Part shown: in pieces, positions 148 to 35,854 of the stretch
Layout of the letters: each line of letters starts with the position of its first letter
How positions within the stretch are numbered: the stretch's first letter is position 1
NCBI GenBank assembly: GCA_005881155.1
Contig: VBHN01000074.1
Coordinates: 1 to 42,002, forward strand
Direction of reading: 5' to 3'
DNA: 42,002 bases
DNA from: Chloroflexota bacterium
GTDB lineage: Bacteria > Chloroflexota > Dormibacteria > Dormibacterales > Dormibacteraceae
The notes under the pieces: model-generated
Database searches by the model: none
Told to the model about the DNA's origin: nothing
What the model saw: only the letters and a program-made list of their open reading frames with translations
Position numbers and translations under genes: made by a program

Positions 148-696
148 ATGACCAGATACGAGATCGACAAGGCCCACAGCCGGTTCGGCTTCACGGCCAA
201 GCACATGATGTTCACGACCGTCCGCGGGCAGTTCACGGACTACGACGGCCACGTCGAGGTCGAGGGCGACGACTACGCCGGCGCGACCGGCGAGTTCACC
301 GTCAAGGTCGCCAGCATCGAGTCCGGCGTCCAGCAGCGGGACGACCACCTGCGCTCGCCCGACTTCTTCAACGCGCCGGAGTTCCCCGACCTGACCTTCA
401 AGCCCACCGCCATCGTGCCCACCGGCAACGACCACTACCAGGTCACCGGCGACCTCACCATCCGCGGTGTGACCAAGCCCGTGGAGCTCGACGTGACCTT
501 GGAAGGGAGGCTCGACAAGGACGCCTGGGGCAAGCAGCGGGTCGCCATCACCGCGCTCGGCCAGGTCAACCGCAAGGACTGGGGCCTGAACTGGAACCTG
601 GCGCTGGAGACCGGCGGCTGGCTGGTCAGCGACACCATCAAGATCGAGGTCGAGGCCGCCTTCGTGGCCGAGGCCGCCGGCCAGGCCGCAGCCTGA
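148..696 (+). CDS. YceI family protein (lipocalin-like polyisoprenoid-binding fold)
   Basis: MTRYEIDKAHSRFGFTAKHMMFTTVRGQF...GDLTIRGVTKPVELDV, a typical YceI pattern; GGAGGAAT Shine-Dalgarno upstream. Confidence 0.93.
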   Translation: MTRYEIDKAHSRFGFTAKHMMFTTVRGQFTDYDGHVEVEGDDYAGATGEFTVKVASIESGVQQRDDHLRSPDFFNAPEFPDLTFKPTAIVPTGNDHYQVTGDLTIRGVTKPVELDVTLEGRLDKDAWGKQRVAITALGQVNRKDWGLNWNLALETGGWLVSDTIKIEVEAAFVAEAAGQAAA

Positions 697-717
697 AGCA
701 GCCGGTTCGCTTCCGGA

Positions 718-748
718 GGGGTCGGGGCAGCTGCCGCGACCCCTTTTT
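718..748 (+). terminator. Rho-independent terminator after the YceI gene
   Basis: GGGGTCG...CGACCCC stem enclosing GGCAGCTGCC, followed by TTTTT. Confidence 0.8.
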
Positions 749-764
749 CTTGTCTGCCTGTCGC

Positions 765-784
765 AAAAGGTACCCGTACCTTTT
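765..784. promoter_or_regulatory. 20-nt palindrome AAAAGGTAC-CC-GTACCTTTT upstream of amt
   Basis: 9-bp perfect arms, 2-nt centre, about 52 bp before the amt ATG. Confidence 0.5.
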
Positions 785-836
785 CGTTTGAACCGCACGT
801 GGCTCGGCACGCGGGACGCACCTAGCGTTTAGACGC

Positions 837-2249
837 ATGAGACGAAATCTGGTGATCGCGACAGCCGCCGCCCTGGGCCTCGCCCTCCTCCCCGTCGTCG
901 CGTTCGCCGCCGACGCGCCCAAGCCGACCACCGCGGACATCGCCTCCGACACCGTCTGGGTGATCGTGACCGGCGTCTTCGTGATGTTCATGCAGGCCGG
1001 CTTCGCGATGCTCGAGGTCGGCTTCAGCCGGATGAAGAACGTGGGCACGGTGGTGGCCAAGGTGATCACCAACTTCTCGATCAGCTCGATCGTCTACTGG
1101 GCGGTCGGCTTCGGGATCGCCTTCGGCGGCGGGGGCCTCTTCTGGCTGATCGGCGGCAGCGGCTGGTTCCCGAGCTTCTCACCGGGCTCGCAGATGGACC
1201 TGCCGGCGCTGGTCGGCAGCACGGCCCCCGCCTCCGCCAAGTTCTTCTTCGAGTTCGTCTTCTGCGCCGTCTCGCTGGCCATCGTCTGGGGCACGATGCT
1301 GGAGCGCACCAAGTTCATCGTCTACATCCTCTTCGCCATCCCCTTCGCCGGCCTCATTTATCCGCTGATCAGCCACCAGCTCTTCGGCGGCGGCTGGCTG
1401 CAGGCCACGCTCGGCGCCCAGGACTTCGCCGGCTCGACGGTCGTCCACCTCACCGGAGCCACCGCCGGCTTCGCCGGCCTGCTCCTGCTCGGTCCCCGGA
1501 TCGGCAAGTACGGCCGCAAGCGAAAGCCGAACGCGATCCCCGGCCACAGCATGCCGATCGCCCAGCTCGGCGTCCTCATCCTCTGGTTCGGCTGGTTCGG
1601 CTTCAACCCGGGCTCGACCCTGAACGCCATCGCCGCGCTGATCTGCATCTACGCGGTCACCAAGACGATGGACGTCGGCATGATCGGCAACGGCGCCATC
1701 GCGGCGCTGGTCGCCATCACGGCGCCTTCGGGCTACGTCGAGCCCTGGGCCGCGCTGGTCATCGGCGGGGTGGCGGGTGTGATCGTGGTGTTCGGCGTGC
1801 TCGCCATCGACAGGTACCTGGACGACCCCATCGGCGCCATCCCCGCGCACGGGCTGGCGGGCATCTGGGGGACGCTCTCCTGCGGCCTCTTCACCGTCCC
1901 GGCGCTGGCCAAGTTCAACGGCATCGGCGAAGGCGGCCTCTTCTACACCGGCTCCTTCCACCAGCTCGGCGCCCAGGCCGTCGCCGTCGGCGTGTCGGCG
2001 GGAACCGTGTTCGTGCTCAGCTTCGCCTGCTTCTGGGTGATCAAGAAGACGGTCGGGCTGCGCGTCTCCGCCCGCGAGGAGATGGAGGGCCTGGACATCA
2101 GCGAGCACGGCATGTGGGGCTACCCCGAGGCCTTCATGCCGGTCCCCGGCGGCGTCTACCGGCCGGCCGAGATGCCGACCGTCAACCCGCACAACGTCGG
2201 GGAGTATGGTGGCGCCGTCAAACCCAGCCGGGAAGGAGCGGGCGCATGA
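837..2249 (+). CDS. amt: Ammonium transporter (Amt family)
   Basis: 470 aa, signal-like N-terminus, multi-TM; AGFAMLEVGFSRMKN and HLTGATAGFAGLLLLGPR Amt motifs. Confidence 0.95.
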   Translation: MRRNLVIATAAALGLALLPVVAFAADAPKPTTADIASDTVWVIVTGVFVMFMQAGFAMLEVGFSRMKNVGTVVAKVITNFSISSIVYWAVGFGIAFGGGGLFWLIGGSGWFPSFSPGSQMDLPALVGSTAPASAKFFFEFVFCAVSLAIVWGTMLERTKFIVYILFAIPFAGLIYPLISHQLFGGGWLQATLGAQDFAGSTVVHLTGATAGFAGLLLLGPRIGKYGRKRKPNAIPGHSMPIAQLGVLILWFGWFGFNPGSTLNAIAALICIYAVTKTMDVGMIGNGAIAALVAITAPSGYVEPWAALVIGGVAGVIVVFGVLAIDRYLDDPIGAIPAHGLAGIWGTLSCGLFTVPALAKFNGIGEGGLFYTGSFHQLGAQAVAVGVSAGTVFVLSFACFWVIKKTVGLRVSAREEMEGLDISEHGMWGYPEAFMPVPGGVYRPAEMPTVNPHNVGEYGGAVKPSREGAGA

Positions 2250-2614
2250 AGCTGGTCGAAGCGATCATCCGGCACGAGAAGCTGCAGGAGGTGCAGGACG
2301 TGCTGGACGAGTGCGGCGTGTCGGGCGTGACGGTGACCGAGGTCAAGGGCTGCGGGGCGCAGCGCGGCTACACGGAGTCCTACCGCGGCACCCGCGTGAA
2401 CATCTCGCTCCGGCCGCGCCTGAAGATCGAGGCGGTGATGCGCACGGAGATCGTCGACAAGGTGGTCGAGATGATCGCGGCCGCGGCCCGGACCGGGGAG
2501 GTGGGCGACGGCAAGATCTTCGTGATCCCGATCGAGGAGGCGGTCAGGATCCGCACCGGCGAGCGCGGACCCGAAACGGTGCAGCACGCCGAGCGCGCGA
2601 TGTGGGGCCACTGA
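2246..2614 (+). CDS. glnK: P-II family nitrogen regulatory protein
   Basis: MKLVEAIIRHEKLQEVQDVLDECGVSGVTVTEVKGCGAQRGYTESYRG...TGEVGDGKIFVIPIEEAVRIRTGE; ATGA overlap with the amt stop. Confidence 0.95.
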   Translation: MKLVEAIIRHEKLQEVQDVLDECGVSGVTVTEVKGCGAQRGYTESYRGTRVNISLRPRLKIEAVMRTEIVDKVVEMIAAAARTGEVGDGKIFVIPIEEAVRIRTGERGPETVQHAERAMWGH

Positions 2615-4142: not shown

Positions 4143-5588
4143 CTACGTTAACAGGGTCTCCCGGAGCGCCTTGCGGTCCACCTTGCCGGGCCCGCCGAGC
4201 GGAATCTCCGGCACAGCTCGGAGCTCTTCCGGCCACTTGTAGCGGGCCATGCCCTGGGCGGCGAGGTGCTCCTGCACGCTCTCCAGGGTCGGCGGGCGCA
4301 GGCCCTGCCTGGCGACCACGAAGGCGACCGCGCGCTCGCCCAGGTCGGCGTCCGGGCGACCTACCACGCAGGCGTCGGCGATGGCCGGGTGGGAGCGGAG
4401 CACCTGCTCGACCTCGTGCGGGTTGATGTTCGAGCCGCCCCGGATGATGAGGTCCTTGGAGCGGCCGGAGACGACCAAGTACCCGTCTTCGTCCAACCGC
4501 CCGAGGTCACCCATGTGGACCCAGCCGTCGGCCGCCTGGGGACCGAACTCTTCGCCCCAGTAGCGCTCCTGGACGGTGTCTCCGCGCATGCAGATCTCGC
4601 CCTCCTCGGTGACCATCACCTCGCAGCAGTCGTGCGGGCGGCCGACCGTGTGGTGGCGCTTCTCGCGCGGGTCGGAAGGGCTGCCGACGCTCAGCTGGCC
4701 GGCGTCCATGGAGCCGTAGAAGATGCAGACCCTGGACCCGGTCCGGTCCTCCCAGCGGGCGGCCAGGTCGGGCGGCATCGGGGCGCCGGCGACGGCTGTG
4801 ACCCGGGCCCCGCGGAGGGCGGCGGGGTCCAGGGCCGGCGACTCCAGGAGCCGGAAGACGTTGGTGGGAACGCCGACCAGCATCGTCGCGCGGTGCTCGG
4901 CGGCCAGCCTTAACACGGTGGCTGGGTTGAACCGGGGCTCGTGCAGCATGATCAGCCCGGCGCCCAGGCGGAGGCAGAAGAGGCACATTCCGCCAATGCC
5001 CTGGGTGAGCGGCGACATGACCAGGACCCGGTCTGCCTCGGTGACCTCGAGGCGGCTGGTGAATCCTTCGAAGGTGGCCTGCTTCAGCTTGGCGCTGAGG
5101 GCCGCCAGCTTGGGCAGCCCGGTCGTGCCGCTGGTCAGCGCGATCTCCACGATCCGCTGGGGGTCTGCAGGCGGGTTGGGGGCGGGGGCGGGCCCGACAG
5201 GCGTCTGGGCCGACGGGGGCGGGAGGGATGAAAAAACGGTCGGCAGGTCGGCCTCGGCGATCACCCGGCGGGCGCCCGATTTGTCCAGCGCCCAGCGCAG
5301 CTCAGCCTCTCCCAGCGTCAGCGGCAGCGGCATGATCACCCCCCCGGCCGCGGGGATGGCGAGCTCCAGCGCCACGTACTCCCAGACGTTCGGCAGGCGC
5401 ACCCCGACCGGCTCTCCCTCGGCCAGTCCGTCCGCTCGGAGCCGCCCCACCAGCCCGTCCACGACCTGCGCCAGCTCGGCGAAGGTGACCCGGCGAACGA
5501 GGTCGTAGACCGCCACCGACGACGGCCGCTCCGCGGCGTTGGCGCGGATGTAGCTCAGCGCGTCGAACCGTCTGCGAATAGCCTCCAC
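4143..5588 (-). CDS. AMP-dependent synthetase/ligase (acyl-CoA ligase family); ORF extends to 5666 but GTG at 5588 is the more likely start
   Basis: IALTSGTTGLPKLA, GEICMRGDTVQERYWG, WVHMGDLGRLDEDGYLVVSGRSKDLIIRGGSNINPHEVE, PLGGPGKVDRKALR; the ORF 5' extension runs into a hairpin. Confidence 0.9.
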   Translation of the reverse strand: MEAIRRRFDALSYIRANAAERPSSVAVYDLVRRVTFAELAQVVDGLVGRLRADGLAEGEPVGVRLPNVWEYVALELAIPAAGGVIMPLPLTLGEAELRWALDKSGARRVIAEADLPTVFSSLPPPSAQTPVGPAPAPNPPADPQRIVEIALTSGTTGLPKLAALSAKLKQATFEGFTSRLEVTEADRVLVMSPLTQGIGGMCLFCLRLGAGLIMLHEPRFNPATVLRLAAEHRATMLVGVPTNVFRLLESPALDPAALRGARVTAVAGAPMPPDLAARWEDRTGSRVCIFYGSMDAGQLSVGSPSDPREKRHHTVGRPHDCCEVMVTEEGEICMRGDTVQERYWGEEFGPQAADGWVHMGDLGRLDEDGYLVVSGRSKDLIIRGGSNINPHEVEQVLRSHPAIADACVVGRPDADLGERAVAFVVARQGLRPPTLESVQEHLAAQGMARYKWPEELRAVPEIPLGGPGKVDRKALRETLLT

Positions 5589-23165: not shown

Positions 23166-23663
23166 CTACCCGGGCGAGCTTGATGCCAATAACCGGCCCG
23201 GCGCCGGCCGGATTCGCGCGCGCTCCAGCGCGGCGAGGGTCAGGCGGTTCAGCTCCTCCTCCTCGGTGACCGTGACGTGGTCCCAGCCCAGGAGGTGCAG
23301 GAAGCCGTGGACGACCAGCAGGCCGAGCTCGCTGTCCTCGGGGTGGCCGAACTCAAGGGCCTGGCGGCGCACCGCCGGCCAGGAAACCACGATGTCACCG
23401 AGATGCGGTTCTTCCTGGTCCCCGGCCGGAAAGGAGAGGACGTCGGTCGCGTGATCCTCCTCCAGGTAACGGCGGTTCAAGCGGCGCAGCTCGCGGTCTC
23501 CGGAGATGCGGATGGCGAGCTCCCAATCCGGCCGCGGCAGCCGGGCTTCGAGCTCAGGGAGACCGGCCGCCGCAGCGACCAGCTCCCGGACGCGGGCGGG
23601 CGCGACCGGCGCGCTGACCGCCTTGACCACCGCCACCCGTCTCCGGAGCTCGCTTCGATCCAC
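23166..23663 (-). CDS. ybeY: Endoribonuclease YbeY (GTG start at 23663; listed ORF to 23819 is over-extended)
   Basis: RRLNRRYLEEDHATDVLSFPAG, VVHGFLHLLGWDH zinc motif. Confidence 0.94.
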   Translation of the reverse strand: MDRSELRRRVAVVKAVSAPVAPARVRELVAAAAGLPELEARLPRPDWELAIRISGDRELRRLNRRYLEEDHATDVLSFPAGDQEEPHLGDIVVSWPAVRRQALEFGHPEDSELGLLVVHGFLHLLGWDHVTVTEEEELNRLTLAALERARIRPAPGRLLASSSPG

Positions 23664-23724
23664 CGCGACTCCCTTATTAGAGCGCCGGCCGGCGGCCGAA
23701 CCGGGCTGGGCTACCCTGACCGCA

Positions 23725-24057
23725 GTGAGCGCGGTCGTCCAGTTCCTCCACGTCCGGCTGGCGATCGCGGTGATCCTCTTCGCGGTCCTGCTCGGGCTCT
23801 GGGGGACGTACCAGTACATCCGCCACCGCGCCGTCAGCGGGGGCTACCGGTCCGCCTACCTGATGCTCTGCGGACTGACCGCGGTACAGGGGTTGCTCGG
23901 ACTCGGGAACCTGCTTCTGGGAGCCGGCCTGCACAAACCGCTGCACGTCGTCTATGGGATCTTCGCCGTGCTCTTCCTGCCCGGCCTCTACTTCTATTCG
24001 GTGTCCGGGCGCAGCTCGCCGGCACGCGAGGCCGCCTTCCTTACGGCCGCCTGCTGA
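23725..24057 (+). CDS. Small multi-TM membrane protein, unknown function (GTG start proposed)
   Basis: VQFLHVRLAIAVILFAVLLGLWGTYQYIRHR..AYLMLCGLTAVQGLLGLGNLLL..LHVVYGIFAVLFLPGLYFYS; 3-4 hydrophobic segments. Confidence 0.65.
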   Translation: MSAVVQFLHVRLAIAVILFAVLLGLWGTYQYIRHRAVSGGYRSAYLMLCGLTAVQGLLGLGNLLLGAGLHKPLHVVYGIFAVLFLPGLYFYSVSGRSSPAREAAFLTAAC

Positions 24058-25136
24058 ACCGCGACGAAACTGCCGACCAGCGTCATCTCGAGCCCGGAGC
24101 GGATCGCATTCTTGCCCGTGAAGAAGGTGCGGGCCGCACCCATCAGGAACAAGCAGACGACACAGATGGCGGCCGTTATCACCAGCGCGACCAGCGGCCG
24201 CGGGCCGGCGACGGCGCGCCCGACCAGGTAGCCGACGACGGGTATGAAGCCGCCGAACAGGGTGGCGACGCCAGCTACCGCCGCCTCCCGGGTGGGGTTC
24301 TCGAACTGGCCGGCATCCAGGCCGAGCTCCTCCCGCGCCTGCGTGTCCAACCAGATCTGCTTGTCGCGGGTGATGCGCGCGACGATCGTTTCGGCTTCCG
24401 AGTCGGTCAGGCCCTTGGCCCGGTAGATCGCCCTGAGCTCCCCACGCTCGAACTCGGGCATGGCCTCGATCTCGGCAGCCTCGCGGGCAAGCTGGTCCTC
24501 GTAGATCTCCCGCTGCGACTTGGTCGCCAGGTAGGCCCCGCCGGCCATCGAGACTCCGGAGGCCGTCATCGCCGCCAGCCCGCCGACCAGGACCACGTGC
24601 GGGTCGACCGTGGCGCCGCCGACGCCGGCGAGCACCCCCAGCGTGGCGGTGAGGCCATCGTTCACGCCGTAGATCACGTTCCGAATACTTTCGATGCCGC
24701 CGCTGCCGTGCCATTCCTCGACGGTCTCCGCCGCCGCCTCCACGCCGCGGGCATGACCAGACTCCTCGGGGATCAGCTCCCTGAGGATGCTCTTGGCGCC
24801 GTCGTCGGCGGCGTGGATCTGACCGAGGTAGGAGCGAAGGATCCGGCTTTCGGCCAGCCCCGCCATCGACATCACCGGACCCACGCCGACCACCCGCGCC
24901 AGAGCGGACAGGACGAACGCACCGATGGTCGCCGGCGCCGCCGGCGCGGCGATCCCGCGCTCCTCCAGGTAACCGGCCCAGGCGTCGGCGTGGCGTCGCT
25001 CATCTGCCGCCAAGCGCTGCAGCTGGCGCTTCGCCGCGGGCTCTCGAGCGACCTGTGAGAGCCGCTGGTAGAGCTCGGCCATGCGAGCTTCGCGAGCCCA
25101 GTTCTGGCGGAGGTCCGCCCGTCCGTTCGCGGTCAC
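23994..25136 (-). CDS. VIT1/CCC1-family transporter with N-terminal ferritin-like domain (probable GTG start at 25136)
   Basis: LRQNWAREARMAELYQRLSQ...ADERRHADAWAGYLEERG ferritin-like; NVIYGVNDGLTATLGVLAGV..GLAAMTASGVSMAGGAYLATKSQREIYE VIT1 core. Confidence 0.85.
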   Translation of the reverse strand: MTANGRADLRQNWAREARMAELYQRLSQVAREPAAKRQLQRLAADERRHADAWAGYLEERGIAAPAAPATIGAFVLSALARVVGVGPVMSMAGLAESRILRSYLGQIHAADDGAKSILRELIPEESGHARGVEAAAETVEEWHGSGGIESIRNVIYGVNDGLTATLGVLAGVGGATVDPHVVLVGGLAAMTASGVSMAGGAYLATKSQREIYEDQLAREAAEIEAMPEFERGELRAIYRAKGLTDSEAETIVARITRDKQIWLDTQAREELGLDAGQFENPTREAAVAGVATLFGGFIPVVGYLVGRAVAGPRPLVALVITAAICVVCLFLMGAARTFFTGKNAIRSGLEMTLVGSFVAVQQAAVRKAASRAGELRPDTE

Positions 25137-25943
25137 CGCTGACCGGCACCGGCCTGCGCCAGCCAGTAGTCGCGGAGACCCTCGCGCCAGGCCGGGAGCC
25201 GCGGCCGCCCCGGACTCCGAGGTCCGGATCGGTTTGACCTGGCTGTCGACTCCCGCGCTGCGGAGTATCGCCACGGCGAACTCGTGGTACGAGCAGCAGC
25301 CGTCCGCGACCAGGTGGAGGATCCCGGTCTCCCCCTTCGTGAGGGCGGCCAGGGTTGCTTCAGCCAGGTGGCCGGTGTAGGTCGGGTTCAGCGTCTGGTC
25401 GGCAACCACCGCCAGCTCTTGGCCGGCCCGCGCGCGAGCCAGCATCCGCTCCGGAAAGTTCCCGCCCCTGCTGGCCGAGCCGCCCGGTCCGAAAAGGCCC
25501 GCCGACCTGATCACCAGCGCTTTCGGGTCCTCGGAGAGGGCCTTGAGCTCGCCCTCCCGCTTGGAGCGCGCGTAGGCGCTGAGGGGGCGGGGCTGGTCAC
25601 TCTCCAGATAGGGCTCGGGGGCGGTCCCGTCGAAGACATAGTTGGTGGAGAAGTGGACAAGCCGCGCTCCCGACCGGCGGCAGGCACGGGCGAGGTTGGC
25701 CGGTCCGTCGGCGTTGACCGCCATCGCCAGTTGAGCTTCGGCCTCGGCGCGGTCCACCGCGTTGTAGGCCGCGCAGTTGAGAACGACCTCGGGCCGCAGC
25801 CGCTCGATCGTTTCCTCGACCTGACCCCGGTCGGTGATCGAGAGCTCCTCGCGAGTGCGCAGAACGCTCTCAGGGACGCGCCGGGCGAACTCCTTGGCGA
25901 GCTGACCGCCGCCGCCGGTGATCAAGATCCTGGCACCCGCCAT
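25133..25943 (-). pseudogene. rfbD: dTDP-4-dehydrorhamnose reductase-like gene with a frame disruption near its 3' end (or assembly error)
   Basis: ILITGGGGQLAKEFA, VVLNCAAYNAVDRAE, FSTNYVFDGTAPEPYLESDQPRPLSAYARSKREGE; expected C-terminus RPRLPAWREGLRDYWLAQAGAGQR* lies in another frame. Confidence 0.8.
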
Positions 25944-28987: not shown

Positions 28988-29015
28988 TCGTACTGGACCC
29001 AGCGGGGGGCGCCAA
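28987..29015 (-). promoter_or_regulatory. Predicted sigma70-type promoter of hrcA
   Basis: Minus strand TTGGCG-17 nt-TACGAT; the -10 abuts the CIRCE element. Confidence 0.55.
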
Positions 29016-29061
29016 CCGGCGCGACCACTCGTCAATGGTCCACCTATTACAATCAGTAAAA

Positions 29062-30315
29062 GTGATAGGAGAGGCGCATAAAACAGGGCCTCTCCGAATT
29101 GGCCTGCTGACCTACAGGGGCAATCCGCACTCAGGCGGCCAGGGCGTCTACGTTCGCGAGCTCTCAACCGCCCTGGCCGGGCTCGGTCACCAGGTCACCG
29201 TCTTCTCTGGCCAGCCTTACCCGGAGCTCACACCTGGAGTCCCCCTGGTCAAGCTTCCGAGCCTCGACCTGTACCGGCCGGAAGATCCTTTCCGGCGGAG
29301 CCGGCCGTTTGCGGATCCGATCGACCTCCTCGAGTTCGGGATCATGTGCAGCGCCGGCTTTCCAGAGCCTTTGACCTTCAGCCTCCGCGCCTGGCGCCAC
29401 CTGCAGCGCTTACGGCCCGACGCCCTGGACATCGTCCACGACAACCAGTGCCTCGGCTACGGGCTGCTGGCCCTCGATCGACGCGTCCCGGTGATCGCGA
29501 CCGTGCATCACCCGATCGTCGTGGACGCTCGCTTCGAGAGGGTTGGCGCATCCACGGCGCGCAGGATCGGCCTGCGGCGCTGGTACGCATTCACCCGAAT
29601 GCAAGGGCGCGTGGCCCGCCGTCTGCGCCGGCTGATAACTGTTTCTGGAGCCTCCAGGGCCGGGATCGTGAAGGAATTCCGGGTCTCAACCGAGCGCGTC
29701 GCGGTGGTGCCAAACGGAGTCGACGCCGAGCGTTTCCGGCCCCTGGCCAGCAGCAGGCGGGTCGCGGGCAGGATCCTGGCAACAGCGAGCGCTGACATGC
29801 CGATGAAGGGCCTCCGGCCACTGCTCGAGGCGGTGGCGCGTGTGCGGGCAACCCGCGCTGCGGAGCTGATCGTCGTGGGCAAGCCCAAAGCCAACGGATC
29901 GATCTCCTCCCTACTCGACGACCTCGGCATCCGTGACTCGGTCAAGTTCCTGAACGGAATCCACGCGGAGGACCTGGTGCGCCTTTATGCCGAGGCTGCG
30001 GTGGCGGTGGTCCCCTCCCTGTACGAGGGCTTCTCCCTGCCGGCCGTGGAGGCGATGGCATGTGCCGTGCCCCTGGTGACCACCACGGGAGGGGCCTTGC
30101 CGGAGGTGGTCGGGAAAGACGGCGAGGCGGCCTTGCTCGTACCGCCAGGCGACGCCCGGGCGCTGGCCACCGCCATCAACAGGGTCCTCGAGGACGCATC
30201 CCTCGGCCGCCGGCTCGGCACCGCTGGTCGCCGCCGGGTGCTCGACAGGTTCAGCTGGCGAAGGACCGCCGAGCTTACGGCGGACCAATATCGAGGCGTC
30301 CTTTCCGGGTGCTGA
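29062..30315 (+). CDS. Glycosyltransferase family 4 protein (start uncertain: GTG 29062 or ATG 29035)
   Basis: IGLLTYRGNPHSGGQGVYVRELSTALAGLGHQVTVFSG; VVPNGVD; VVPSLYEGFSLPAVEAMACAVPLVTTTGGALPEVV. Confidence 0.92.
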   Translation: MIGEAHKTGPLRIGLLTYRGNPHSGGQGVYVRELSTALAGLGHQVTVFSGQPYPELTPGVPLVKLPSLDLYRPEDPFRRSRPFADPIDLLEFGIMCSAGFPEPLTFSLRAWRHLQRLRPDALDIVHDNQCLGYGLLALDRRVPVIATVHHPIVVDARFERVGASTARRIGLRRWYAFTRMQGRVARRLRRLITVSGASRAGIVKEFRVSTERVAVVPNGVDAERFRPLASSRRVAGRILATASADMPMKGLRPLLEAVARVRATRAAELIVVGKPKANGSISSLLDDLGIRDSVKFLNGIHAEDLVRLYAEAAVAVVPSLYEGFSLPAVEAMACAVPLVTTTGGALPEVVGKDGEAALLVPPGDARALATAINRVLEDASLGRRLGTAGRRRVLDRFSWRRTAELTADQYRGVLSGC

Positions 30316-31019
30316 CGATCGACTTCGACAGACTCCGGCTGGAGCCGGGAGACAGGCTCCTGGACGTCGGGGCAGGCACCGGCAGGCACAGCTTCGAAGG
30401 GCTACGGCGAGGCGCCGACGTTGTCGCACTCGACCTCGACCAGGGCGACCTTGGCAGCGCCGAAGCGACCCTGGTGGCGATGGCGGAGGCGGGCGAGTCG
30501 CACCCGGCGGGACGGAGCCAGACGCTGGTGGCGGATGCGCTCTGCCTGCCCTTTGCTGACGGTACTTTCGACGCGGTGATCGCCTCTGAGGTCCTCGAAC
30601 ACATCGGCGACGACGAGCGCGCTATCGCAGAGATCAGCCGGGTGCTCAAGCCCGGCGGGCGCCTCGCGGTCAGCGTTCCGCGCTGGTATCCCGAGCGAAT
30701 CTGTTGGGCGATCTCGCGCGAATACCACAGCAATGCGGGAGGCCACGTGCGCATCTACCGCGGCCGGGAGCTGCGCCAACAGCTGGAGCGCGCGAGGTTG
30801 AAGGTTGTCGGCTCACATCACGCACATGCGCTCCATTCACCCTACTGGTGGCTTCGCTGCTGGTTCGGAGTCCGCGATGAGCGGCGCCTGATACCGCGTT
30901 TGTACCATCGCCTGCTGGTCTGGGACATCTCTCGCCGGCCTTTGGTCACCCGCCTGGCCGAGCGGGTCCTGAATCCCCTGCTTGGCAAGAGTCTTGTGCT
31001 CTATCTAGAGAAGCGGTGA
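30309..31019 (+). CDS. Class I SAM-dependent methyltransferase
   Basis: LLDVGAGTGRHSFEGLRRGADVVALDLD; FDAVIASEVLEHIGDDERAIAEISRVLKPGGRLAVSVP; 7-bp overlap with the GT4 gene. Confidence 0.9.
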   Translation: MLTIDFDRLRLEPGDRLLDVGAGTGRHSFEGLRRGADVVALDLDQGDLGSAEATLVAMAEAGESHPAGRSQTLVADALCLPFADGTFDAVIASEVLEHIGDDERAIAEISRVLKPGGRLAVSVPRWYPERICWAISREYHSNAGGHVRIYRGRELRQQLERARLKVVGSHHAHALHSPYWWLRCWFGVRDERRLIPRLYHRLLVWDISRRPLVTRLAERVLNPLLGKSLVLYLEKR

Positions 31020-31023
31020 CGGC

Positions 31024-32052
31024 TTGATCTCGAGCCTCCCCGAGGACGTCGGCCTCACGACCGCGGAGGCGGGCGAGAGCGCTGCCTGGATCGCGGGCTT
31101 GCAGACCGACAGTGGCGCCATCCCCTGGGAGGCGTCTCGACACGTCGACACCTGGAACCACGTCGAAGCTGCGATGGGTCTCGACGCTGGCGGCCTTCAC
31201 GATGCCGCCGCGCGTGCCTACGAGTGGCTCCGCACGAGCCAACGCAGAGACGGATCCTGGTTTGCCGGCTATCGAGGCGGCAACGCCTGTGATCGAAGCG
31301 TCGACGTCAACTTCTGCGGCTACGTCGCCGCCGGTGTCTGGCATCACTACCTCTCGACCCGCGACTGCGACTTTCTCAGTCGCCTCTGGCCCTGTGTTGA
31401 GGCGGCCGTCGGCTTCGTCCTGTCGCAACAGGCCGCTGACGGCACCGTCAATTGGGCCATCGACAGGAAGGGAACGCCCTGGCCCCAAGCACTGTTGAGC
31501 TCCTGCTCCTCGATCTTCATGAGCATTGGCTCCGCGCTCGCCATCTCGTCGGTGCTGGGCCGTGAGCGGCTTGCCTGGGAGTCGGGACTCCGGAAGCTGG
31601 GCCAGGCAATCCGGGAGCGGCCGGATAACTTCCTGCCGAAAGAACGCTATTCGATGGACTGGTACTACCCCGTCCTGGTGGGCGCGCTCGATGCGAAGGA
31701 GAGCCAAGGCCGCATCGAGTCCGGTTGGGACACCTTCGTGGTCGAGGGCCTGGGTGTGAGATGCGTTGCGGACCGGCCCTGGGTCACCGTGGCCGAGACC
31801 TGCGAACTGGTCATCGCGCTAACAACCCTGGGTTGGCATGGCGAGGCTGCGCGCCTCTTCGAATGGACGCGCGAGCTTCGCTGCCCGTCCGGTGCCTACT
31901 GGACCGGGGTCACGATCGAGGAACGGACGCCGTGGCCGGTCGAGAAGACCACCTGGACGGCCGGCGCCGTCCTGCTGGCCTCGGGCGCGCTCAGCGGTGA
32001 CAGTGCCGTAGCGGCACTGTTCAGGTCACGCAATCCGGCGCAGGACCCTTAG
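31024..32052 (+). CDS. Alpha/alpha-toroid protein, prenyltransferase/squalene-cyclase-like repeats
   Basis: QW-like motifs QTDSGAIPW, QRRDGSW, QQAADGTVNW; TTG start 4 nt after the methyltransferase. Confidence 0.7.
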   Translation: MISSLPEDVGLTTAEAGESAAWIAGLQTDSGAIPWEASRHVDTWNHVEAAMGLDAGGLHDAAARAYEWLRTSQRRDGSWFAGYRGGNACDRSVDVNFCGYVAAGVWHHYLSTRDCDFLSRLWPCVEAAVGFVLSQQAADGTVNWAIDRKGTPWPQALLSSCSSIFMSIGSALAISSVLGRERLAWESGLRKLGQAIRERPDNFLPKERYSMDWYYPVLVGALDAKESQGRIESGWDTFVVEGLGVRCVADRPWVTVAETCELVIALTTLGWHGEAARLFEWTRELRCPSGAYWTGVTIEERTPWPVEKTTWTAGAVLLASGALSGDSAVAALFRSRNPAQDP

Positions 32053-32643
32053 GCTCGCCTCCTCGACGAGCGGCTCGAAGGCCCCGCTTGCCAGCGCTTC
32101 GGTGAAGATCAGGAAGGGTGCTCCGCCCCCGTCGGCTGGATCCGGGAAGACATCGTGGATGGCCAGGATCCCGCCGGCGATGAGGTGCGGAGACCAGCCC
32201 TGGAAGTCGGCGCGAACGGACTCCTCCGTGTGACTCCCATCGATGAAAACCAGGCCAAGCGGTGTCCTCCAGTAGGTCGAAACGGTGCCCGACCGAGCGA
32301 CGATGATGACGACCTCCTCATCCAGGCCCGCTTCGGCGAGGGTGACGCGGAGGGCGGGCAGGCTGTCGATCCGCCCGTCCGGACCGACCAGCCCGGGTTC
32401 GTAGTAATCCTGCCCCGGCTGCTGTTCCTCGGACCCGCGGTGATGGTCGATGGTGTATAGAACCGTCCGGCATTCGCGAGCCGCCGCGCCGAGGTATACA
32501 GCCGACTTGCCGCAGTAGCTGCCGACCTCCAGGAGGGGGCCCACCTGGCCGCCGATCAGGCCCGCCCCGTGGAGGGCCAAGCCTTCCGACGGGAGCAGGA
32601 AGCCTCGGGCGGCCTCCCCCTGGCGCCGAAGCGTCGGGTCCAC
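32026..32643 (-). CDS. Class I SAM-dependent methyltransferase (Methyltransf_24-like)
   Basis: GPLLEVGSYCGKSAVYLGAAAR; LYTIDHHRGSEEQQPG; GLVFIDGSHTEESVRADFQGWSPHLIAGGILAIHDVFPDP. Confidence 0.85.
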   Translation of the reverse strand: MDPTLRRQGEAARGFLLPSEGLALHGAGLIGGQVGPLLEVGSYCGKSAVYLGAAARECRTVLYTIDHHRGSEEQQPGQDYYEPGLVGPDGRIDSLPALRVTLAEAGLDEEVVIIVARSGTVSTYWRTPLGLVFIDGSHTEESVRADFQGWSPHLIAGGILAIHDVFPDPADGGGAPFLIFTEALASGAFEPLVEEASLRVLRRIA

Positions 32644-32651
32644 CCGTCCTG

Positions 32652-33800
32652 TTAGAGAACGGCCAGCGCGATCTGGTTGTGGAGGTCGAGACCGCGCTCC
32701 GTGGGATGAACCCGGTTGGCCAGCCTTGCGATCAAGCCCGCTTCCTCGAGGTCAGCCAGCTCGGTCTCGAACCCGTGCGGTGGTTCGAGACCGTCGACGG
32801 TCCGCAGCCCCAGCATGATCTGCTCGGCCCTGGCCTTTCGCGGGTCGAGATCCTCGCCGTCCTCCACGAAAGAGGTTGAGGAGATGTACTCCTGCGGTCG
32901 CGACCAGTTCCACCAGCGTCGAGCCGATTCTCCGGAGCGAGCGTAAGAATGAGCCCCACAGCCGGCGCCGTACACCGGCCGGCATTGCCAGTAGGACCGG
33001 TTGTGCCTGGATTCGAAGCCCGGCCGGCTCCAGCTCGAGACCTCGTAACGACGGTAGCCGGCGCCAATGAGCACGGACCGGCACCTCTCGAGGAACTGCC
33101 AGGCGACGTCGACGTCGACGGGAGGTAGCTGGCCGCGGGTCAGGCGGCGGTGGAGCAGCGTCCCCGGCTCGATCGTCAGGCAATAGCAGGAGAGGTGCTC
33201 GGGGTTCAGCTCGAGCGCTTGTGACAGGGTGTGCTCCCACGCGGCCAGCGTCTGGAAGGGCACGGCGTAGATCAGGTCGAGGCTCAGATTTGTGAACCCG
33301 GCTTCGCGCGCTTGGCCGACGGCCCGCCGGGCTTGCGCTCCGTCCGTCCGCCTTTCCAGGACCGCCAAGGCTCGAGGGTCGAATCCCTGGACGCCGATGC
33401 TCAGACGGTTCACTCCGGCTTGGCGCCAGGTCTCGAGTTTCGCTGGATCGGTCGACGCGGGGTTGGCCTCGAGCGTGATCTCGGCGCCGGCTTCGACCTC
33501 GAAGAGGGACCGGATCCGATCCAGAAGTCCCCCGATGGCCGCCGCCGGCAGGAGGCTGGGCGTGCCACCACCGAAATAGACCGTAGCCAAGGGCCCGAAG
33601 GAATGACGCTCGGCGGCGCAGCCAAGCTCTCGTTCGAGAGCCTCCACGTAAGGCTGCATCAAGCCATCGAGGCCGGCGTAGGCGTTGAAGTCGCAGTAAC
33701 CACACTTGTGCCGGCAAAACGGTAGGTGGACGTAGAGGTGATGGAAACGTTCGTTGTTAAGGACGTCGCCGGCGGCTGGATCGGGCCCGGACAGTGTCAT
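32652..33800 (-). CDS. hemW: HemW-type radical SAM protein (coproporphyrinogen III oxidase-like)
   Basis: LYVHLPFCRHKCGYCDFNAYA, TVYFGGGTPSLL, NRLSIGVQGFDP, ESRHNRSYWQ. Confidence 0.94.
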   Translation of the reverse strand: MTLSGPDPAAGDVLNNERFHHLYVHLPFCRHKCGYCDFNAYAGLDGLMQPYVEALERELGCAAERHSFGPLATVYFGGGTPSLLPAAAIGGLLDRIRSLFEVEAGAEITLEANPASTDPAKLETWRQAGVNRLSIGVQGFDPRALAVLERRTDGAQARRAVGQAREAGFTNLSLDLIYAVPFQTLAAWEHTLSQALELNPEHLSCYCLTIEPGTLLHRRLTRGQLPPVDVDVAWQFLERCRSVLIGAGYRRYEVSSWSRPGFESRHNRSYWQCRPVYGAGCGAHSYARSGESARRWWNWSRPQEYISSTSFVEDGEDLDPRKARAEQIMLGLRTVDGLEPPHGFETELADLEEAGLIARLANRVHPTERGLDLHNQIALAVL

Positions 33801-35471
33801 CCCTCGAGCCGTTCCAGCTCCTCCTCCACCAGGCTGACGAGCTCGCCGATCGTCTGCGCGTCAAAGGCCAGCTTGATCCCCGCCGCCTCGTAGAGCTCGG
33901 GAAGCGGCCGGGTCGAACCGAGTCCGAGAGCCTTTCGGTAGGCGGCGACGGTCCCTGATTGATCCTTCAACGCGTTGCGCCATACCTGCAGAGCACCCAG
34001 TTGGGCGATGCCGTACTCGATGTAGTAGAAGGGCACCTCGAAGATGTGGATCTGCTGGTACCAGCGCGCGATCCACTCCGCCTCCAAACCGTCGTAATCG
34101 ATCCCCTCTTCGAACCTCTTGCGCAGCCGCAGCCACTCCCGGTCACGAGCCTCAGCGTCCGAGCCGGCGGGATCGGTGTAGATCCAATGTTGAAAGGCGT
34201 CGACGGTTGCGCAGTGCGGGAAGAACAGGATGATGCGCTCCAGGTGGTCGATCCGGGCCCGGCGATAGTCCTCCTCCGAGTAATAGCCACCCGCCGACCG
34301 AGCCCAGTAGGGGGCCGAAAGCAGCTCCATCGCCATCGACCCCACCTCGGCCATCTCCATCCCCGGCCAGCGCTGGCAGAAGAGAAGGTTGTTGTCGAAT
34401 TGCTCGAAGCCCTGGAAGGCGTGGCCGGCTTCGTGGACCAACGTGACGAGGTCGTCGGCAACTCCTGCCGCATTCATGAAGATGAGCGGTCGCTTTTTCC
34501 TCGGCAGGTCGGTCATGTATCCGCCGGGGGCTTTCCCGCGGCGGCTTTCAAGGTCCAGCAAACCCTCTTGCTGCATGGTCTGGAAATAGCGGCCGAGCTC
34601 AGGGTCGACGCGGTTGAAGACGGACACGCCGCGGTCCACAAACTCGGTTGCTGACTCGAAGGGACGAACCGGTGGCCGGCCCTCTGCGTCGACGCCGACA
34701 TCCCACGGCCGGAGGGCGTCCAGCCGCATCTGCTGCTGCCGCCTCTTCAAGAGGCGGGCCGCCGCCGGCACCACCTTATCGGCGACGGCTTGGTGGAACG
34801 CATAGCAATCGCGCGGCGTGTAGTCGAAGCGATGCTTCTCTCTGGAAGCCTGCGTTGTGCGCGATCTCCTGACGGAGCTTGTACTGCTCGTCGAAGAGGG
34901 CTGCCAACTGCTGGCGCTGCGCGACGTAAGGCGCTCGATGTAAGCGCCAGGCCTTCTCGCGCGTTTCCCGGTCGGGGTCGAGCATGAACGGTCGCAGCCG
35001 AGGCAGGGGTAGGTCCTGGCCGTTCCAGGGAGCGGTCATCGCCCCCGTCACCTTCTGGTACTCGGCGCTCAGCCGCTCCACTTCCGCCTTGAGGGGGACG
35101 TTCTCCTCCCGGAAGATGTCGTTTGTCGTCCGGAATCGGCGGAGTGACTCATCCAGGTCTTCGCGCGTGTAGCCGATCTCCAACAATCGCCGGCTGAGCC
35201 GAACGCGCTGCTCGGCCGCGTTCGGCTCGATCTCGGTTTGGAAGCGCAGGTTGTCGGCCTCCTTGGCGGGGTCGGCGGTGTCGCAGGTGTAGTCGAAGTA
35301 GACCTGCTCGCGCGCTTCACCGAGGAGGTCTTCGAAGGACGACCAGTCGTCCAGCCATTCCGCTGCGTTGTCCAAGCTGAGCGGCCGGTAGAAAAGATCG
35401 TTATAGATCGGCAGGATCTCGTCCCAGCTGAGCTTCGCGAAGTCTTTCGAGGAATCGGGGAGGGCGATCAT
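33797..35471 (-). pseudogene. M3-family oligoendopeptidase split into two frames (ORFs 34776..35471 and 33797..34774)
   Basis: N-half ...YKLRQEIAHNAGFQ; C-half frame reads SREKHRFDYTPRDCYAFHQAVADKVVPAAARLLKRR...LVTLVHEAGHAFQGF (HEXXH). Confidence 0.85.
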
Positions 35472-35477
35472 CGGGCC

Positions 35478-35854
35478 TTACGCTACCTGTCCGACCGATT
35501 TGAGGTCGCCCACCACGCCCTGGCAAAGTTGGAGAAGGCGCTCCGGTTCGATGGCGAAGACGGCGTCGGGCCAGCCGGCGGCTGGATCGCGAAGCCGGTC
35601 GAGATCCTGGCCGTTTCGGCGTCAGCCCTCGCCACCGGCTCGCCGGCGAGGTCTGCGAGCCTGGCCGGGTCGAGGCGGTTCTCTCCACTGACCAGCGCGA
35701 CGACCGGGCGGCCGGCCGCGACGAAGACCAGGGATTTGACGATCTGGCCGAGCCGGCAGCCGATAGCGCGAGCGGCGTCTTCGGCGGTCCGAGTCCCCTC
35801 GGGGAACCGCCGCACCTCGAACTCCTCGAGGAGCTCAGCTAGCCGGGCGGCCAT
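35478..35854 (-). pseudogene. YbaK/aminoacyl-tRNA deacylase family gene with internal frame disruption (observed frame stops at 35483)
   Basis: N-half ...ALVSGENRLDPARLADLAGEPVARADAETARISTGFAI; other frame gives AAGWPDAVFAIEPERLLQLCQGVVGDLKSVGQVA*. Confidence 0.8.

Follow-up and report, generated by a model that had tools for sequence, protein, structure and literature searches.

The 649-aa open reading frame (ORF) that runs in a single frame from a dTDP-4-dehydrorhamnose reductase (RmlD) into a ferritin-like/VIT1 (MbfA-like) putative iron transporter (23994..25943 on the minus strand, with an ATG start) probably represents two separate genes, with approximately 47 nt missing near the 3′ end of rmlD, most likely through an error in the assembly. 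The ORF is located in a window of 42,002 nt (the whole stretch of DNA that was analyzed) of a metagenome-assembled genome (MAG) of Dormibacterota (2.80 Mb in 235 contigs, 85% complete), of which stretches totaling ~656 kb, including the window, were read. Pfam and NCBIfam place RmlD at residues 5–248 and VIT1 at residues 420–629 of the ORF. The interval given for the fusion in a preliminary description of the locus (25133–25943) covers the RmlD part only and not the whole fused ORF.

Two genes in one reading frame

RmlD produces dTDP-L-rhamnose. The first part of the ORF matches the RmlD/RfbD family (TIGR01214, PF04321; solved relatives 1vl0, 4wpg, 3sc6, and 1kbz) over profile positions 1–250 of 285, with 242 bits against a curated cut-off of 224, and is the single copy of rmlD above this cut-off in the MAG; another contig carries rmlB and, next to it, a weak rmlC-like match. 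Unlike the rest of the family, the protein has neither the RPLNGCL-type block nor the correct frame for its last ~20 residues. The RPxNGxL block of the RmlD C-terminus is absent from the reading frame, and the WxxxL helix is present solely in frame +1, where the peptide PGRPRLPAWREGLRDYWLAQAGAGQR, its stop codon, and the GTGA at 25136–25133 are found exactly as previously described. The resemblance of this relic to the C-terminus of RmlD exceeds chance, because its alignment score with the homolog of UBA6019 (G012), a Dormibacterota MAG and the nearest relative, was equaled in just 1 of 10,000 shuffles; the scores with the C-termini of four other relatives were equaled in 6 to 130 of 5,000 shuffles. 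The in-frame linker scores far below the relic.

Table 1. Features of the fused ORF and its surroundings (window coordinates)
Feature	Position	Strand	Remarks
rmlD (dTDP-4-dehydrorhamnose reductase), frame 0	25212..25943	-	Intact to approximately residue 244–250; TIGR01214, PF04321
Deletion junction in rmlD	25194..25214	-	~47 nt (44–47) that in relatives encode the RPLNGCL-type block are lost; exact breakpoint placed only to within this interval
Relic of the RmlD C-terminus, frame +1, LPAWREGLRDYWLAQAGAGQR followed by stop	25133..25198	-	TGA at the end overlaps GTG
GTGA stop/start overlap, presumed ancestral site of translational coupling	25133..25136	-	Also in UBA6019 (L008 1492–1495)
Ferritin-like/VIT1 (MbfA-like) putative iron transporter	23994..25136	-	GTG start at 25136; alignment A1, PF01988; C-terminal tail changed by the second deletion
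Second deletion junction	24045..24065	.	~97 nt fewer than in UBA6019; VIT and the convergent CtaA-like gene both lose their ends
COX15/CtaA-like gene	23506..24057	+	PF02628; C-terminus cut off at the junction 24045..24065

In the alignment of RmlD from relatives, an RPLNGCLxSxR-type block is followed by LPAW or LRxW in 18 of 18 sequences; here, LPAW nearly adjoins TSES. The distance between the Glu codon of TSE and the Leu codon of LPAW is 16 nt versus 63 nt in UBA6019, which amounts to a loss of 47 nt (44 nt when measured against the shorter sequence L020). The loss is not a multiple of three and therefore shifts the frame of rmlD. The preliminary description had proposed a frameshift artefact and had singled out the stretch near 25198–25213 for a read-level check, which agrees with the position of the junction (~25194–25214); the frame change is, however, no slip of a single base or homopolymer in the GC run GGGGCGGCCGCGG but the loss of ~47 nt, whose encoded block is kept in all 18 relatives.

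The second part of the ORF comprises a VIT1 membrane domain (PF01988, 194.7 bits) and a ferritin-like N-terminal domain, in which E16, E46, H49, E96, E124, E125, and H128 are invariant in alignment A1. The protein is 77% identical to its counterpart in UBA6019, which has weak matches to Rubrerythrin/COQ7. The same combination of domains is found in MbfA-type exporters and is conserved across the Dormibacterota family, so that the second gene encodes, as predicted from its sequence, an MbfA-like ferritin-like/VIT1 protein and putative iron exporter. MbfA exports iron in alphaproteobacteria (PMC7762939). Unlike the characterized MbfA, which is from alphaproteobacteria only (PMC7762939), the protein described here stems from outside this group, and its C-terminal tail is altered by a second deletion.

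UBA6019 encodes rmlD (644..1495) and VIT (1492..2604; both on L008) as separate ORFs that have an identical GTGA in common. This confirms that the 649-aa ORF joins two genes and supports the earlier proposal that two genes with overlapping stop and start codons are the ancestral state. A genome of the same genus was not found among the relatives; UBA6019, the closest, has a DNA identity of only ~77%. Several other genera of the family also have rmlD and VIT on one contig and in the same direction, but some kilobases apart, and their adjacency therefore seems to be particular to two genera, those of the source MAG and UBA6019.

The search for the fusion architecture in related genomes that the preliminary description had suggested yielded no second case, either among 60 relatives or across the phylum (300 genomes). 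One candidate (G003), in which the VIT match begins at query residue 230, was rejected; the RmlD search gave just a 30%-identical, epimerase-level match on the opposite strand of the locus. That the ORF is a genuine, selected fusion that tethers RmlD to the iron transporter is extremely improbable: although 649 codons are open and both domains score well, it has no counterpart in the genomes searched, its linker is the conserved C-terminus of RmlD read out of frame, and it would combine an RmlD without the family-wide block with a VIT protein without its normal C-terminal tail.

Further deletions on the contig

The window contains other deletions. Relative to UBA6019, a loss of ~97 nt at 24.05 kb takes the tails of both VIT and the convergent CtaA-like gene. 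A peptidase M3/PepF-like gene (34406–35471, minus strand) is split by a 23-nt deletion at ~34841 (34.84 kb), which leaves the HEAGH-containing part in the next frame; past the break, 144 codons are 83% identical, with differences mainly in third positions. A gene for a YbaK-like aminoacyl-tRNA editing domain (35475–35854, minus strand) has lost ~82 nt (35.57 kb), including the conserved GGVPPFGH loop. Downstream of each break on the contig, the protein frame resumes and the coding sequence is intact. Nonsense codons or indels of 1–2 nt are absent from the compared genes, in which deletions of 23–97 nt are the only damage. The genes mfd, dnaJ, grpE, hrcA, and hemW, among others, are intact in the window.

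These deletions bear on an alternative explanation, namely that RmlD was inactivated, and VIT brought into its frame, by a real and recent deletion of ~47 nt in a living population, so that the cell either makes the fusion or loses both functions; the deletions in the VIT tail, YbaK, and M3 would then be further pseudogenizing events. The short repeat CGGCTCCC, which could have flanked both ends of the rmlD deletion, and the location of all four deletions of the window in plausibly dispensable genes, with core genes intact, would fit such a scenario, but the restriction of the damage to deletions of 23–97 nt, the constraint on coding that persists past each break, the presence of rmlB from the same pathway, a similar break in the single-copy uvrA, and the undersized runs of N in the MAG (see below) make it rather unlikely. 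Considerably more doubtful is the possibility that the deletion is real and that the truncated RmlD is tethered to the membrane-bound ferritin-like iron exporter, in a new fusion caught soon after the loss of the coupling site.

An apparent 157-nt deletion at 17.6 kb is no defect in the window but reflects a run of N in UBA6019, and Ns likewise interrupt the M3 peptidase of UBA6019, which is not truncated. The strength of hairpins at the junctions is not unusual after GC matching and was dismissed as a cause of the deletions. In the hrcA of UBA6019 (L045 ~5348–5458), the last ~37 residues do not match those of the window. The UBA6019 MAG may carry a similar fault in this gene, because hrcA of the window matches that of other relatives to its end. 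The stretch of ~3.6 kb between hrcA and hemW (28993–32653) has no counterpart in UBA6019.

Similar faults elsewhere in the MAG

Breaks of the same kind occur in other genes of the MAG. The single-copy uvrA has an out-of-frame loss of profile positions 198–209 (197 is followed by 210), and uvrC is broken out of frame by a loss of positions 462–477 (461 is followed by 478), both without Ns; a second copy of uvrC on another contig is whole. The breaks in uvrA and uvrC share one contig (G000 contig 6; L169 3625 and 10589). A URO-D-like gene has lost ~12 aa without Ns, and a gene for a dehydrogenase E1-beta-like protein has an N-free break (identified by reading). In the gene for UDP-glucose dehydrogenase (UGD), 26 residues of the profile (78 nt) are missing but the run of N measures 24 nt, and in a gene of the D-cysteine desulfhydrase family (DcyD-like), a run of ~28–31 nt is found where ~34 residues (~100 nt) are missing; the in-gene runs of N in the MAG are 50–75 nt too short. 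A ribonucleotide-reductase-like gene (named from a reading of its peptide) is put out of frame by an exact tandem duplication of 61 bp (L182 3730–3851). The duplication resembles two overlapping contig ends set end to end. Three such exact duplications occur in 447 kb of the MAG, one of them a repeat of only 21 bp, and none in either a further 209 kb of the MAG or 686 kb of relatives.

A wrong gap size at joined contig ends accounts jointly for the short runs of N, the N-free losses, and the duplicated overlap. Selection in a free-living bacterium would hardly account for the loss of uvrA through a clean deletion of ~36 nt without other decay. In a codon-usage scan, in-gene frame changes amounted to 4.0 per 100 kb in the MAG versus 1.0–7.7 in relatives, with a higher value in UBA6019, so that the scan alone does not set the MAG clearly apart. 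A pairwise scan of frame changes between HSPs was noisy, because upstream extensions of ORFs were scored as frame changes; only its in-gene breaks were used.

Origin and meaning of the apparent fusion

The gap in rmlD is most likely technical rather than a real mutation. A faulty joining of contigs is favored because of the N-free losses, the undersized runs of N, and the 61-bp duplication elsewhere in the MAG, and the artefact proposed in the preliminary description is thus the probable and better-supported cause. Confidence in an artefact is limited to a probable one because the rate of in-gene frame changes in the MAG lies between those of its relatives and because all four deletions of the window fall in possibly dispensable genes and spare core genes, as decay under selection would give, although the latter argument is post hoc.

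The following sequence of events would explain the assembled locus. The organism presumably has, or recently had, separate genes for RmlD and the ferritin-like/VIT1 putative iron exporter, whose GTGA overlap would mediate translational coupling: ribosomes that end RmlD could restart on the transporter. Contig ends would have been joined over a short unassembled interval without Ns, which would leave ~47 nt missing. Because the missing length is not divisible by three, the frame of rmlD would overrun its own stop and enter that of the transporter, yielding the 649-aa ORF with a meaningless linker. In the assembled sequence, ribosomes would not terminate at the GTGA, and the coupling would be lost.

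There is precedent for such false gene breaks. Indels that are not a multiple of three cause them, and “Many purported pseudogenes in bacterial genomes are bona fide genes” (PMC11017572). The breaks described here resemble these but differ from that study, whose scope does not include MAGs, in that the indels comprise tens of bases and are contig-join-like. The absence of a short stretch from a metagenome-derived genome can mimic a domain fusion. In practice, an apparent fusion can be tested by searching the adjacent frame for a conserved C-terminus and a stop/start overlap, and by checking whether core genes from that assembly show similar faults. Neither the fused protein nor its linker should be taken as biology; if the fusion is an artefact, the rmlD–VIT pair in the real genome would be an ordinary one.
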